A DNA stretch of 25,247 nucleotides from a virus, in IMG/VR virus record IMGVR_UViG_3300012005_000051, positions 1-25,247 of that record. One strand, written 5' to 3'. The position numbers and the translations under genes were made by a program. The notes below the pieces were generated by a model. It worked only from the letters and a program-made list of their open reading frames with translations, did not search any database and was not told where the DNA came from. Below, one piece after another: positions 91 through 17,223 of this stretch (its first letter is position 1; every line of letters begins with the position of its first letter).

Positions 91-116
91 CTCAATCTCC
101 CCACATTTCCACATGA

Positions 117-373
<257 letters not shown>

Positions 374-386
<13 letters not shown>

Positions 387-1132: not shown

Positions 1133-1331
1133 CGTGGACTATCCCTTTATTGTGCAATAACATTCTTAAGCGAGCGTTAGTCAGCAAGGTTTCTCGAAGC
1201 ATATCGCATTTTAAATCGTAGATATCGCCAATCCGATCAACTTCTTTTTGGCAAGTTTCAGCGCGGTCAAACTGCTCATCGCCTCGCTTTCTTTCATTTT
1301 CGCAATCAATGCAAACTACGTCTTCAGACAT
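1125..1331 (-). CDS. small coiled-coil protein with a CxxC pair
   Basis: This is a 68-residue protein that starts MSEDVVCIDCENERKR, giving a CxxC pair at residues 7-10. A charged helical stretch with heptad-like character follows (about 20-60, 'QKEVDRIGDIYDLKCDMLRETL'-like). It has the form of a short zinc-binding or disulfide head with a coiled coil. The ATG overlaps the stop of the exonuclease gene by one base (TAATG), so it is probably translated by coupling. No family is recognised. Confidence 0.6.
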   Translation of the reverse strand: MSEDVVCIDCENERKRGDEQFDRAETCQKEVDRIGDIYDLKCDMLRETLLTNARLRMLLHNKGIVHDD

Positions 1332-2125
1332 TACAAGACTCCCTGTTCTTTATGAAAACACCAATGAGGCGCACCTATATTCTCGATCTTGTCACTATAT
1401 CCAACATATTGTTTTGGATTGTTTAAATAATCTTTATATTTCGCCAGGCTCTTCTTATAGCTGGCACGGCCAATATCAATTGACGGTTGATCTAGGGAAT
1501 AGCAAGCGACTCCGTGCTGTCTGGCACCGCGCTCAACTGCGATGAATAGAAACCCCGTCGCACCAAGACCGTTCTGAGCGCAAAGGTCGATATAAAAAGC
1601 AGCTTGCTGATAATAATTATACTTGCCAATTGATCTAGCAAATTCCGAAGCACTAGCATCCTGGCAGGACTTCAAGTCAATTACGTATCCATTATTTAAA
1701 AGATCAATCTTGGCCCTAACTGGTACGCCATCGAACTCTCCAGTTAAAACACCCTCACACTGGGCACCATTTAAAACATTCTTGGCCATCGGGTGTGCCC
1801 TTAGATTATCTCGAAGTTGGTTAATCTCCCTCCAATCAGAAGCGGAAATTACTTCACGTCCAGAATCTAAAAGATGTTGATATTGATCTTTTCCGATTTT
1901 AGTACGACGGTCCATCCCCTCGGGAGACACGATATAGTTTTGATGAAAATTAGACTCTTCTAAAACATAAGAATGGAGTGCTCTTCCGAATCCCATTGAA
2001 GAAGTATCTTCTTTTTGATCTTTGTTTAAGTAATGTGAAATGGATTTTTCGATTAGTTTACAATCTGAATTTGAAATCTCTGGACGTGAAAAATAGAGTG
2101 AATCTGAAATTGGACCTAAAATCAT
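1331..2125 (-). CDS. RecE-type PD-(D/E)XK exonuclease (DUF3799-like)
   Basis: This 264-aa protein has the signature of phage RecE/exodeoxyribonuclease-VIII-like nucleases. It has a helical 'FGRALHSYVLEE' motif with His51, a core 'GVPVRAKIDLL...GYVIDLKSC' supplying Asp141 and the D150-L-K152 metal-binding pair, and a 'YYQQAAFY' helix (171-178) supplying the conserved Gln and Tyr. The family degrades one strand of duplex DNA to expose ssDNA for annealing. The natural partner here is the RecT-like protein encoded at 3700-4434. I prefer the ATG at 2125 over a GTG four codons upstream because GTGGGG lies 6 nt before this ATG and would be inside the coding region otherwise. A promoter-like sequence lies just upstream. 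Confidence 0.82.
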   Translation of the reverse strand: MILGPISDSLYFSRPEISNSDCKLIEKSISHYLNKDQKEDTSSMGFGRALHSYVLEESNFHQNYIVSPEGMDRRTKIGKDQYQHLLDSGREVISASDWREINQLRDNLRAHPMAKNVLNGAQCEGVLTGEFDGVPVRAKIDLLNNGYVIDLKSCQDASASEFARSIGKYNYYQQAAFYIDLCAQNGLGATGFLFIAVERGARQHGVACYSLDQPSIDIGRASYKKSLAKYKDYLNNPKQYVGYSDKIENIGAPHWCFHKEQGVL

Positions 2126-2163
2126 GTGATGCCCCACTGAAAAAAGTTATTTGGTAAAATTAA

Positions 2164-2201: not shown

Positions 2202-2666
2202 CTATTCCCAACCAACTATTATCCGGTGAAACATGGCCGCTATTTGCTTGTATTCTGCCGCTTCAACTAACACCATTTTTTCATCAGGGAAGTATTTGGC
2301 GAATCTTTTAAGCTTAGTTTTAGATTTCGGATCAAGCCATCCCTTTAACTCAATCCAATATTGAGAACCATCTAGATTAGTTATTCGATAGTCGGGCCTA
2401 TAGCTACTACAGCCTCTTTTAATCTTTTCGAAGTAAAAAGTAGTAGGTTCATACTCCCATCCCTTAATCTCACCTATCTCTACCCTGTATTGAAGGAATC
2501 GAGTAAAGTTCTTCTCGTAAGACGAGCGTACAAAGATTCTCTGGCCTCCGACTTCAATCCAGCCTGAATTATAGTTAGATTCTTTTTTCTTCTTCTCTTT
2601 CTTGGTCGGCAAGGTTTTTGGGAGAATTGGCTTTTGTTTGGAAAGTAGCTCATCAATCTTGGACAT
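2202..2666 (-). CDS. PD-(D/E)XK endonuclease-like protein
   Basis: This is a 154-aa protein. After a Lys-rich linker (residues 11-30) it has a nuclease core: 'SSYEKNF' with Glu51, 'SYRPDYRI' with Asp92, and 'YWIELKGW' with Glu106 and Lys108. That E...PD...ExK arrangement is typical of small phage PD-(D/E)XK endonucleases of the DUF1064/T7 endonuclease I-like type, which cut branched DNA or packaging intermediates. The 'GWLDPKSKTKLKRFAKYFP' tail after the core is also typical. The start is supported by AAAGGA 6 nt upstream. It is the first gene leftward of the structured RNA region. Confidence 0.7.
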   Translation of the reverse strand: MSKIDELLSKQKPILPKTLPTKKEKKKKESNYNSGWIEVGGQRIFVRSSYEKNFTRFLQYRVEIGEIKGWEYEPTTFYFEKIKRGCSSYRPDYRITNLDGSQYWIELKGWLDPKSKTKLKRFAKYFPDEKMVLVEAAEYKQIAAMFHRIIVGWE

Positions 2667-3097
2667 CTAGTTCCTTTGGTTTTTGGGTATAACGGAGCTT
2701 ACTGGCGGTGAAACTCTTAGGAACTACCCTACTTGCTTCTAGCTGGTGCCAGCCTTTCTATCAGTGTTTCTTCTTATCCGTCTCGTTTCCCAGTCGCAGT
2801 TGGGCCATTGAGTATCACCATGCCTAATCTTTAGCCCTTTCAATCCTAAAAAGTGCGTTCGATACGAGTCTCGAATAAGACCTTATTCACCTACAGACCA
2901 TTATTGGCCATTGGAATATCTAAACACTGAAAAGTTAATATGATTACGCTCCGTAAGTTATAATCATAGGCGGCGACCGGACCAATACGCGCTTAATTCC
3001 GGTCAATTCTTCAGAGAGTCGTTTTCCTACGTGCGAATCTTGAGCGCACGAATACTAGCTCGTTAAAGTTCCATTTTATTAAAGAATAATGGGAGAA

Positions 3098-3226
3098 AAT
3101 TCTATAAGTTTCAGCGTCTGCCAAGAATTAGAGTTGATTATTAGGATAAGTTTATATATTGTAAAGCTACTAATTCTCACAATTAGTGCCAATCGCCCCA
3201 TAATTCTATAAGCTTCTCTGCCAAGA
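3098..3226 (+). repeat. two-copy direct repeat near the 3' end of the RNA region
   Basis: AATTCTATAAG is followed by TCTGCCAAGA at 3098-3108 plus 3117-3126, and again at 3202-3212 plus 3217-3226. The two blocks are 8 nt apart in the first copy and 4 nt apart in the second. The copies flank the ACTAATT hairpin. The second copy lies in the loop of the terminator-like structure. Confidence 0.8.
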
Positions 3227-3249
3227 GTGTTTTAGATCGGGGCTTTTTT
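3195..3249 (+). terminator. terminator-like structure ending the RNA region
   Basis: GCCCC (3195-3199) pairs with GGGGC (3239-3243), which is followed directly by T6 (3244-3249). The long loop holds a second small hairpin, CTCT-gcca-AGAG (3216-3227). The large loop is not classical, so it could be an attenuator controlling the gene at 3311 rather than a plain terminator. Confidence 0.55.
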
Positions 3250-3310
3250 GTCTTTACAGCTCAAGCAATAAGCCATATTAACTTCGCATAACTAAAACAA
3301 AGAGCATTTC

Positions 3311-3628
3311 GTGATTCCAAAAAACCAAGATTATTACGATCCAAGGGAAGCAAACGAGAAGAGGTATTCTATTCCTAGGGGGGACTTAAAGAAGGCCATC
3401 GCTTACCTGGAACACAAGGAAGCTCGTGAAAAAGTAAAGGCTAGTATGTATAAGGTTTCTGATGTCGGACTCAACAACAGACTTCCTGCTAGCTTAAAAC
3501 TGGTTCGTTTTATCAAAAACAAAAACATTGAAGTTTCAAATAATCTAAAGAGATTCGAGGCGATTGCCATTATAGAAGAATTAGGATTTTCTGTAGATAT
3601 GAACGATTTGATAATTTTGGATGAATAA
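3311..3628 (+). CDS. 105-aa basic protein, unknown function
   Basis: It starts with GTG at 3311, with AAAGAG about 7 nt upstream, and is the only rightward gene in the left third of the window. The protein is rich in Lys, Arg and Glu, looks all-helical in the middle ('RGDLKKAIAYLEHKEAREKVKAS'-like, residues 23-45) and ends acidic (MNDLIILDE). No signal peptide, membrane segment or catalytic motif is visible and I do not recognise a family. It lies directly downstream of the structured RNA and its terminator-like element, so it may be controlled by read-through. The length does not fit type III toxins of the ToxN kind (about 170 aa). Convergent transcription from the RecT operon is stopped by a terminator overlapping its end. 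Confidence 0.6.
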   Translation: MIPKNQDYYDPREANEKRYSIPRGDLKKAIAYLEHKEAREKVKASMYKVSDVGLNNRLPASLKLVRFIKNKNIEVSNNLKRFEAIAIIEELGFSVDMNDLIILDE

Positions 3629-3650
3629 AAAAGGCCCTCCGAAAAGGGCC
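3627..3650 (-). terminator. Rho-independent terminator of the leftward early operon
   Basis: On the minus strand a perfect 6-bp stem GGCCCT/AGGGCC with a 6-nt loop (3633-3650) is followed by six U (A6 at 3627-3632 on the + strand). It stops leftward transcription after the RecT-like gene and overlaps the last codon of the convergent gene at 3311-3628. Confidence 0.85.
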
Positions 3651-4445: not shown

Positions 4446-4736
4446 TTAGTAATGATATTTATAAACGTAATTTTCGATGATCATTTTCATTGTTAGCAAG
4501 AGAAATGCAATAAAGCAAAAATACCAAAAAGTAGTTCCATTCTTTTCAATTTTCTCAGTTGCTCCCTTCCGCTTACTTTTTGATAGGTCTTCGATTAACC
4601 CCAGGTTGTTTTTAACTCGATAAAGAATTTTATCAATTTTCTCAGTATCCAGAATAGAATAAGTTTCGGCCTTGAGTGCTACCGATAAAATATCTAGGTA
4701 ATCCTGATGATTATGCTCTTGTGATTGCTTTTTCAT
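4446..4736 (-). CDS. small tail-anchored membrane protein
   Basis: This is 96 aa if started at ATG 4736, which has AAGGG 9 nt upstream. A longer in-frame start at 4802 lies wholly inside the preceding gene and lacks a ribosome-binding site. The N-terminal two thirds are hydrophilic, helical and Lys/Glu-rich. Residues about 69-87 (FWYFCFIAFLLLTMKMII) form one membrane helix, followed by a short Tyr/Lys tail. This is the shape of a C-terminally anchored inner-membrane protein. It overlaps the helicase-loader-like gene by 26 nt. Candidate roles are tethering replication to the membrane or superinfection exclusion, but neither is shown by the sequence. Confidence 0.6.
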   Translation of the reverse strand: MKKQSQEHNHQDYLDILSVALKAETYSILDTEKIDKILYRVKNNLGLIEDLSKSKRKGATEKIEKNGTTFWYFCFIAFLLLTMKMIIENYVYKYHY

Positions 4737-5202
4737 TGCTAGTACCCTTGATAGTATCCAAAAAGAAGGATGGTTTATTAATAATAGACTTAAATGCCTC
4801 AATCATATCTTTTTTATACATTTTTTGGCATTCGTTAAAGCCATAATCTGTTACAAATTGAACAAGTTCACTACGATTATTTTGGATAAAATAGTGATAG
4901 TTTCCGGCCGATGTTTTAATTGCCATCTCGAACTCTCCTGTTAGCTCAAGGGCCCTTTGGTCCAACGTCCCAATAGGTCTCAAGATAGTGAAGTAGTCAT
5001 TGATCCCAGGAAAATAAGGACTTCTTTGGAGGATATACTCCGATGCCTTGCTAATTTCATCATAGCTAAAATATTTCACCAGGTATTCAGCATAGGCAGC
5101 AATTTGCTTTTCTGTGCGTTCAACGTTTTTAACTATGGCCAGATGACATAAGAGCTTGGCCACATTTATCGGTAAAGCATTTTTTTGACTTTGTGTTTCC
5201 AT
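4711..5202 (-). CDS. helicase-loader-like replication protein
   Basis: This 163-aa protein's N-terminal half is a helical domain with the pattern seen in phage helicase loaders/inhibitors of the G39P type: 'VAKLLCHLAIVKNVERTEKQIAAYAEYLVKY' shape, then 'YDEISKASEYIL' and 'YFPGINDYFTILRP' (about residues 65-78; a 'FPs+.ei' motif). It lies in the same operon as the replication initiator (5750-6340). The C-terminal half is helical and unassigned. No Walker motif is present, so it is not a DnaC-type ATPase. The start is firm, with AAGGGGG 5 nt before the ATG. A replication accessory role is inferred and the exact family is uncertain. Confidence 0.5.
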   Translation of the reverse strand: METQSQKNALPINVAKLLCHLAIVKNVERTEKQIAAYAEYLVKYFSYDEISKASEYILQRSPYFPGINDYFTILRPIGTLDQRALELTGEFEMAIKTSAGNYHYFIQNNRSELVQFVTDYGFNECQKMYKKDMIEAFKSIINKPSFFLDTIKGTSNEKAITRA

Positions 5203-5456
5203 GAGACCCCCTTTTTTAGTTCACTGACTTCCATTTTCGCATCACCCATTAAGACTCTATAAGATTGAGCTCCGATTATAATTTCAACACATTTATCAAA
5301 GGTTAAGTCTGGTTCGCTGTCTTTAAATTTTAACCAAAGCTTGCGACTTGCGATTAAAAAATGCTCAGAAACATAATGCCCTCTAAATTTATAATAAGTA
5401 TTTAGCCCGGTATATTCACACTGCCCTTCTTTTTCACATGGTATTAGCTCATTCAT
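5166..5456 (-). CDS. 96-aa hypothetical early protein
   Basis: It begins MNELIPCEKEGQCEYTGLN with two Cys at residues 7 and 13, and continues with an aromatic, charged sequence ('YYKFRGHYVSEHFL', 'FDKCVEIIIGAQSYRVLMG'). The end is Lys-rich. No known domain is evident. The ATG overlaps the TGA of the micro-gene at 5453-5578 (ATGA) and AGGA lies 6 nt upstream. Its end overlaps the next gene by 37 nt, typical of the tight packing in this operon. Confidence 0.6.
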   Translation of the reverse strand: MNELIPCEKEGQCEYTGLNTYYKFRGHYVSEHFLIASRKLWLKFKDSEPDLTFDKCVEIIIGAQSYRVLMGDAKMEVSELKKGVSWKHKVKKMLYR

Positions 5457-16205: not shown

Positions 16206-16472
16206 ATGAATATGCTAGAAGGAAATAGAAAAATTGCCTCGGTATTAATCGATAAAATGTCTCCTAATATGAAGCTTGGACCTAAAGAGCCTAGCGATGA
16301 TATTAATGAGAATGCTCACCAGTTAGAAATAACCAAGGAACTAATGAGCGCCATTAAAGAAAATAAGCCTGAAAAGGCCTGTAGAGCTTTGATGATGCTT
16401 ATAAAAGCATGTTACGATGAATATGAAGAAAAAGAAGATGAAGAAAACGACGAAACGCCCGATAGTGAGTAA
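16206..16472 (+). CDS. 88-aa acidic hypothetical protein
   Basis: This is a mostly helical small protein with 'ITKELMSAIKENKPEKACRALMMLIKACYDE' (about residues 40-70) and a very acidic end (EEKEDEENDETPDSE). AGGGG lies 5 nt before the ATG. Genes like this, a helical 'l..Ai...D...a..aL...i..C' protein, commonly follow capsid/decoration genes in podovirus-like phages. The function is unknown. A strong terminator follows, so it is the last gene of the capsid transcript. Confidence 0.6.
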   Translation: MNMLEGNRKIASVLIDKMSPNMKLGPKEPSDDINENAHQLEITKELMSAIKENKPEKACRALMMLIKACYDEYEEKEDEENDETPDSE

Positions 16473-16496
16473 TCGCTAAAAGCAAACCGTCACATA

Positions 16497-16523
16497 AGGG
16501 GCCGCGTTCCGGCCTCTTCTTTT
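16497..16523 (+). terminator. Rho-independent terminator after the capsid block
   Basis: AGGGGCCG (16497-16504) pairs with CGGCCTCT (16510-16517) as 8 bp with one G-U pair and loop cgttc, followed by TCTTCTTTT. It separates the capsid genes from the neck/tail genes. Since no obvious promoter precedes the next gene, read-through must supply it. Confidence 0.8.
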
Positions 16524-16536
16524 AAAGGGTATACAA

Positions 16537-17223
16537 ATGAGCCGAAACACAACCCTTCTCAAACTTAGAACCCAATCGCGCCTTAGGGCCGACAAAGTTA
16601 ATTCTGGATTTATTTTAGATTCGGAGCTTAATCAATATGTTAATAATTCCATTACTGAGCTTTATGATCTCTTGGTTGGGGCTTATGGTAATGACTATTA
16701 TTTAAAGAAGTATCAATTCAGTACAGATGGAATCAATTCAGAATTTGCTCTTCCGGCAGACTTTTATAAATTAGAAGGTATTGACTTAAATGTTAATGCT
16801 TCAAACTTTATCACTCTAAAGCCTTACATGTTTAACGAAAGAGCTAGGTTCCAAAATGGATCTAACTGGTCAGCTAATAGTATGGCCCAAGGGCCACGCT
16901 ACCACCTCAAAGCTTCTACAGTCGACTTCGTTCCAACTCCTTCGGTAAATGCCTTAACGATGTATTATATTCCGGCCTCCCCGGAACTTATCGGTGATTC
17001 CGACACCTTCGATGGGATTAATGGCTGGGAAGAGTATGTTGTAGTGGATGCAGCAATTAAAATGCTTCAAAAGGAAGAGTCTGACGTTAGTGTTTTAGCG
17101 GCCCAAAAACAGGCGTTAGTTTTACGCATAAATGCCATGGCCGAGAATCGTGACATGGGACATTCCTTTAAAGTTCAAGATGTACAACAAAGATATAATG
17201 ATCGATTTATGGAAGGTTACTAA
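16537..17223 (+). CDS. head-tail adaptor (neck) protein
   Basis: This is a 228-aa protein. The helical N-terminus ('LLKLRTQSRLRADKVNSGFILDSELNQYVNNSITELYDLL', about residues 7-46) is the standard start of podoviral adaptor proteins comparable to P22 gp4. It is followed by 'FALPADFYKLEGIDL' (about 70-84) and a helical C-terminus with 'EEYVVVDAAIKML'. These proteins form a ring under the portal. AAAGGG lies 7 nt upstream, directly after the terminator. Confidence 0.75.
   Translation: MSRNTTLLKLRTQSRLRADKVNSGFILDSELNQYVNNSITELYDLLVGAYGNDYYLKKYQFSTDGINSEFALPADFYKLEGIDLNVNASNFITLKPYMFNERARFQNGSNWSANSMAQGPRYHLKASTVDFVPTPSVNALTMYYIPASPELIGDSDTFDGINGWEEYVVVDAAIKMLQKEESDVSVLAAQKQALVLRINAMAENRDMGHSFKVQDVQQRYNDRFMEGY

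Follow-up and report, generated by a model that had tools for sequence, protein, structure and literature searches.

The locus and its counterparts in related phages

The window, i.e., the whole stretch of DNA analysed here (25,247 nucleotides), comes from an uncultured tailed phage; its 25 kb encode an SU10-type portal, a terminase and a recombination module. Two leftward recombination genes and a small rightward gene border the stretch of interest:

1331-2137 (-): exonuclease VIII-like protein (DUF3799), 268 aa, the next leftward gene; phrog_412, E 2e-64; PF12684
2202-2666 (-): Holliday-junction-resolvase-like endonuclease, 154 aa, the first leftward gene; phrog_9019, E 7e-11
3311-3628 (+): 105-aa protein of no assigned family, just past the terminator described below
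3633-3650 (-): terminator at the end of the leftward gene block that lies upstream; L002 and L049 likewise have one

As a preliminary description had stated for 2690-3250, positions 2667-3310 are devoid of genes: neither strand has an open reading frame of more than 40 aa, and none of those of 40 aa or less is gene-like. The stretch is about three times the length of any other true gap in the window; a second long gap is about half occupied by a short HNH-like gene.

Relatives were found by terminase searches, and two of them retain the locus: L002 (terminase 74% identical to that of the window; the contig, the closest relative's record, is 35.6 kb) and L007/L004 (about 62-64% identical). At the equivalent position, L002 and L007 have ~550-590 nt without an obvious gene, which separate the leftward gene from a RecT-like block. 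Comparison by blastn found almost no similarity between the gene-free stretches, though the proteins are mostly 40-74% identical, and the first ~350 nt (the 5' two thirds) could not be aligned among the phages. In a fourth relative, L049, the corresponding interval is only 262 nt long and lacks a promoter-hairpin-terminator unit of the kind described below. Additional relatives were sought with terminase, 105-aa protein, RecT-like, endonuclease and exonuclease queries, in viral contigs and in one genome scan, and besides L002, L007 and the deviating L049, these searches yielded no further phage with the locus. Long gaps in G003, G004, G007, G012 and L026 are at a different locus and look unrelated.

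The gene to the left of the stretch is exchanged among the phages (window 2202-2666, L002 4437-4895, L007 3875-4330, L049 4785-5246): the window and L002 carry one resolvase family (45% identity), L049 a RecU-like resolvase, and L007 a 151-aa protein that matches no family clearly. On the right, a family search with the 105-aa protein gave no match, and its predicted structure is mostly helical and of low confidence (mean pLDDT 64). This protein is 55% identical in L007, has a remote relative in L049 and is absent at this place in L002. A conserved GLNNRLPASLKL motif is found in the small rightward protein of the window (3311-3628), L007 (5004-5321) and L049 (5509-5781); the protein follows the putative small RNA in the window and L007, and the remote relative in L049 stands alone.

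Folding of the gene-free stretch

The preliminary description had proposed a single 560-nt "ornate" RNA over this stretch, on the basis of densely spaced complementary segments. Such an RNA was not supported, because folding z-scores were not beyond those of shuffled sequences and no Rfam family matched. The complementary segments themselves are present, and mostly in the minimum free energy (MFE) structure. The long-range helix joins 2761-2769 with 2922-2930 (p about 1) and is extended by 2754-2757/2931-2934, the pairing of 2692-2701 with 2945-2954 occurs in the sequence with a core of 7 bp, and local hairpins are found at 2939-2968, 2975-3004, 3030-3050 and elsewhere. Their density, however, is no greater than chance, which by our own estimate would give ~1 perfect 9-bp and ~10 7-bp complementary pairs in 560 nt. 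Dinucleotide shuffles folded about equally well (z = -0.8 to -1.2), so the claim of dense structure did not hold: the MFE z on the + strand was -0.82 for 2680-3250 and -1.16 for 2667-3250, that on the - strand was 0.05, and sliding 120-nt windows over the stretch gave no z below -1.1 on either strand. The long-range helices also had no evident counterpart in the syntenic stretches of L002 and L007. Rfam covariance models, including GOLLD, ROOL, OLE and introns, gave no match at the gathering threshold in the window, L002, L007 or L049, and nothing credible at a permissive E of up to 10, either in these records or in the stretch itself. An SR1 match at 3053-3202 (15.6 bits vs. a threshold of 45) was dismissed as chance, and a search of the 25-kb window for tRNA genes found none.

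The only portion of the stretch that exceeded chance in folding was its last 82 nt (z = -3.8; 1 of 400 shuffles as good). Here, the 3' end had been described correctly, with a G+C stem (3195-3199/3239-3243) and, after it, T6 at 3244-3249. A non-coding RNA on the + strand that ends at this stem and T6 is likely, as had been suggested, but of another size and kind than was suggested. For the stretch outside 3134-3250, a leader of a leftward transcript (opposite strand) is the better interpretation, and most of the proposed 560-nt RNA would fall within this leader.

A putative small RNA gene and a predicted leftward promoter

The conserved unit of the locus appears to be a ~80-nt promoter-hairpin-linker-terminator gene at 3134-3250. 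Its predicted elements, and those of the leftward transcript, are as follows:

2667-3130 (-): putative 5' leader of the leftward operon, ~460 nt, untranslated and without genes
3030-3094 (no strand assigned): hairpin, conserved GAATACTAGCTCGTTAAAGT (3053-3073) and hairpin, a block common to the window and L002
3098-3126 (+): repeat copy 1; its complement is nt 5-33 of the leftward transcript
3134-3162 (+): rightward promoter TTGATT-17-TATTGT, predicted start 3169
3137-3165 (-): leftward promoter TTTACA-17-AATAAT, 10/12 consensus, predicted start about 3130
3169-3250 (+): putative ~82-nt small RNA (5' hairpin, linker, terminator), from rule match, fold z and synteny
3169-3187 (+): 5' hairpin ACUAAUU-CUCAC-AAUUAGU, which begins exactly at the predicted +1
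3195-3249 (+): intrinsic terminator, a GCCCC...GGGGC stem before T6; L002 and L007 have classical terminators at the equivalent position
3202-3226 (+): repeat copy 2, AATTCTATAAGCTTC-TCTGCCAAGA, within the small RNA; direct repeat with 3098-3126

All promoters in this study were predicted from matches to the (sigma-70-like) consensus. The hexamers and spacing of the rightward promoter are identical in L002 (5276-5304), where, as in the window, only 8/12 positions agree with the consensus, and the L007 promoter (4870-4898) reads TTGACA-17-TATTCT. In all three phages, 6 nt of discriminator lie between the -10 hexamer and the first base of the hairpin. The hairpin is GAGAGU-UCCAU-GCUCUU in L002 and AUCAGU...ACUGAU in L007; its six outer pairs are kept in all three phages and, by direct reading, three of these are changed on both sides. 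A hairpin at +1 is expected by chance in about 10% of cases per sequence, and therefore is weak as a lone feature.

We scanned for the combination of a sigma-70-like promoter with a 17-nt spacer, a hairpin exactly at +1 and a terminator 45-92 nt on. The comparison comprised three genomes, and this rule, like the segments tested below, was selected after inspecting them. Over the whole records and both strands, exactly one match was obtained in each of the window, L002 and L007, all three at this locus and on this strand (syntenic equivalents of the small RNA, L002 5311-5386 and L007 4905-4985); shuffled genomes gave 0.06-0.16 matches per strand. A stricter rule lowered this number to 0.02-0.07 per strand and missed L002. 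On ~700 kb of other loci, the rule returned four chance-like matches, two of them at one and the same place. The small RNA itself folded with z-scores of -3.8 in the window, -2.3 in L002 and -5.3 in L007. Alignment by eye from the terminator backwards revealed one order of elements common to the three phages: hairpin, short motif, hairpin, repeat copy 1, promoters, hairpin, repeat copy 2 and terminator.

The predicted leftward promoter occupies the same DNA as the rightward promoter, in the opposite direction, in both the window and L002 (TTGACA-17-AAAAAT); the best leftward promoter of L007 is nearby, offset and less convincing. A leftward promoter is needed here, since transcription of the upstream leftward block would stop at a terminator of its own. 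A search for a leftward terminator within 2667-3130 on the - strand found none, and the inferred leaders of L002 and L007 are ~380 and ~466 nt long, respectively. Inside the supposed leader of L007, there is a 47-aa open reading frame with a good ribosome-binding site (4581-4724, -), which has no counterpart in the window or L002.

Direct repeats and RNA complementarity

In all three phages, a pair of direct repeats flanks the promoters, with a spacing of 104, 90 and 92 nt in the window, L002 and L007, respectively. The repeat sequences differ between the phages and match within each, and equally good repeats at equivalent places were seen in 1, 8 and 3 of 300 shuffles (window, L002, L007). 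As the two transcripts diverge, a direct repeat in the DNA means complementarity in the RNA, with about 25 pairs and one 4-nt bulge in the window, 14 pairs in L002 and 11 in L007.

Because the pairing segments were chosen after the repeats had been seen, the duplex and shuffle figures that follow are descriptive rather than strict tests: duplexes between the linker of each small RNA and the start (~40 nt) of the leftward leader of the same phage had energies of -31.4, -14.9 and -19.0 kcal/mol (window, L002, L007), all six cross-phage combinations gave -1.8 to -10.4 kcal/mol, and the own duplex was equalled by 0, 4 and 4 of 1000 shuffled leaders and by 0, 8 and 1 of 1000 shuffled linkers. None of the other 41-nt tiles of the own leader equalled this duplex. 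The repeat of L002 is A+T-rich, one mismatch in it corresponds to a G-U pair, and when the first 120 nt of the L002 leader are considered, the best duplex lies elsewhere. Repeat copy 2 of the window is partly within the terminator hairpin. Genome-wide, other ungapped matches score equally high.

Proposed antisense control and alternative explanations

It is probable, in our judgement, that the right end of the stretch contains the gene for a divergent antisense small RNA that controls the leftward resolvase/exonuclease operon. Transcription of the ~82-nt RNA (3169-3250, +) would begin at a promoter overlapping, in the opposite orientation, that of the leftward operon; this operon would comprise the resolvase-like endonuclease, the exonuclease and the genes after them. 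Through copy 2, the small RNA would pair with the complement of copy 1 in the first ~40 nt of the leftward transcript, some 430 nt upstream of the first leftward start codon. Pairing at the start of the nascent transcript might lead to RNase III cleavage, to premature termination, to a refolded ~460-nt leader or to an effect on translation of the first gene, and the recombination genes would be held down as a consequence. From what was found by computation, i.e., a gene-free stretch, its syntenic conservation, the promoter-hairpin-terminator unit and a complementarity that co-varies in three phages, we infer that the two RNAs are produced and pair in the cell, with repression as the outcome. 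Nothing in this analysis supports an additional, longer rightward RNA. A more tentative extension, which we consider possible without favoring it, is that a co-evolving divergent antisense RNA controls the phage recombination operon via a long leader at a two-way promoter, each RNA being specific for its own phage. Since pairing specificity differs between the related phages, the action of each RNA would be confined to the phage that encodes it, as for an immunity determinant.

The main rival to an antisense RNA is a pair of protein operators, an explanation that we regard as unlikely. Control would then be exerted on the DNA, with the two direct repeats serving as operators for a phage regulator that flank the divergent promoter and act by looping or occlusion; the repeats would differ because the specificity of the regulator had changed, and the small RNA would be a short leader or absent. 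Consistent with this, the repeats flank the promoters at a spacing of 90-104 bp in all three phages, a further palindrome lies on a promoter-like site at 2935-2968, and operators co-vary with repressors in known phages. However, the repeats are direct in all three phages, as RNA pairing requires, and none is clearly palindromic; the 4-nt insertion inside the window repeat would be a tolerable bulge in an RNA duplex but hardly tolerable in a protein site, one L002 mismatch would still pair as G-U, and the hairpin-linker-terminator unit would not be needed.

A single large RNA of ~560 nt, reading rightward from ~2690 to 3250 and resembling ROOL or GOLLD in spirit, appears improbable. Two relatives do have a gene-free stretch of similar size, place and terminator strand, the hairpin-motif-hairpin block at 3030-3094 is common to the window and L002, and the stretch of L007 folds at z = -3.0 on the + strand, but also at -3.4 on the - strand. 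Against it, z is about -1 in the window and L002 (-1.0 in L002), Rfam gave no match, the first ~350 nt cannot be aligned, the long-range helices are not conserved and there is no convincing rightward promoter near 2690. That the stretch is an ordinary untranslated spacer with a fortuitous repeat, its terminator serving stray rightward transcription, would fit the unremarkable composition and folding of most of it and the few genomes compared; we find this very improbable, given that the promoter-hairpin-terminator unit occurs once per genome, at one locus, in three diverged phages, and that the complementarity co-varies among these phages. The slightest chance is given to a type I toxin-antitoxin system, in which the small RNA would be the antitoxin and the leftward leader would encode a small membrane toxin in the style of tisB/IstR-1 or zorO/OrzO. 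The divergent layout, short RNA and ~20-nt complementarity in the 5'-UTR are as in those pairs (PMC4147584, PMC3919570), but the leftward strand of the window and L002 has no small hydrophobic open reading frame with a ribosome-binding site, and the only good candidate in L007 is the hydrophilic 47-aa frame.

If antisense control is true, an uncultured phage group that has been seen only in metagenomes would gain an antisense RNA, and a divergent RNA pair of the IstR/OrzO type would serve phage recombination genes instead of a toxin. The co-varying repeats make the hypothesis testable in a surrogate host, without the phage. Furthermore, apparent "dense structure" in a 560-nt spacer can mask a small, well-bounded RNA gene at one end.

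Comparison with known RNAs

In IstR-1/tisB, OhsC/shoB and OrzO/zorO, an RNA lies adjacent to and divergent from its target and has 18-21 nt of complementarity to the target 5' UTR (PMC4147584, PMC3919570), and IstR-1 acts far from the tisB start codon (PMC4147584). The present locus shares with these loci the divergent layout and RNA-target complementarity, here a direct repeat in the DNA. As judged by sequence, the small RNA has its own promoter and intrinsic terminator and diverges from its putative target; complementarity in the window (about 25 pairs with one 4-nt bulge) reaches the known length, and that in L002 (14) and L007 (11) is shorter than in the known cases. In contrast to IstR-1/OrzO-type RNAs, the present RNA would target an operon for phage recombination rather than a small hydrophobic toxin, and there is no sequence relation to them (no Rfam match). 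We do not claim membership in the divergent type I antitoxins, because no hydrophobic toxin frame was found. A type III system (ToxIN/CptIN/TenpIN; tandem short repeats, terminator, ToxN-fold toxin) was also ruled against: the locus has two repeats ~100 nt apart, and the 105-aa protein has no family match and is absent at this place in L002.

Among phage RNAs, OOP and sar lie on the strand opposite their target (cis-antisense), unlike the present RNA, whose complementarity comes from a segment repeated across the divergent promoter. By pairing, the short RNAs OOP of lambda, sar of P22 and c4 of P1/P7 lower the expression of a phage operon next to them (PMC12197685). Like GOLLD and ROOL, the stretch is non-coding, phage-borne and gene-free, with roughly the size of ROOL; unlike them, it has no Rfam match, tRNA array or structure excess, and its conserved core is only ~80 nt. 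The elaborate conserved structure over more than 500 nt of GOLLD, ROOL and OLE was not found, nor were the neighbouring tRNA genes, a usual, not strict, feature of this class, in the window. In ICP1, with an abundant ncRNA of ~800 nt, and in the satellite PLE, with the IIR transcript, long spaces that lack open reading frames are transcribed, and IIR is complementary to nearby gene leaders (PMC7567579). Those RNAs were seen in RNA-seq, unlike the present one, which is predicted from sequence and would be ten times shorter than that of ICP1.

Additional observations

Other pairings within the stretch were tried and rejected. The duplex energy of a long-range 5'-3' closing helix (2674-2722 with 3100-3133) was matched by 127 of 500 shuffles, and the helix has no counterpart in the relatives; an attenuator, in which a 5' anti-repeat would pair with either repeat, was found only in the window. 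A search of the three genomes for a common mRNA target of the small RNA gave none.

Between the two hairpins of the 3030-3094 block lies a 20-nt element, GAATACTA(A)GCYCGTTAARGT, at 3053-3073 (+) in the window and 5185-5206 (+) in L002; a DNA pattern search with this element found L002 only and no other IMG/VR contig. At 2935-2968, the window has a 30-bp imperfect palindrome, TATGATTACG-ctc-CGTAAgtTATAATCATA, which is operator-like and lies over the promoter-like site TTAATA-18-TATAAT. In the record of another relative, L044, a 608-nt gene-free stretch at a different locus (16387-16994) has a strong terminator at its end and contains several closely spaced restriction-site palindromes. Finally, a ~250-bp array of short repeats stands at an equivalent position, beside the same small gene, in the window (92-386), L002 (2160-2409) and L049 (2104-2437); the array is open in several frames and encodes (G/S/D/Y)-rich or (H/S/Q)-rich peptides.
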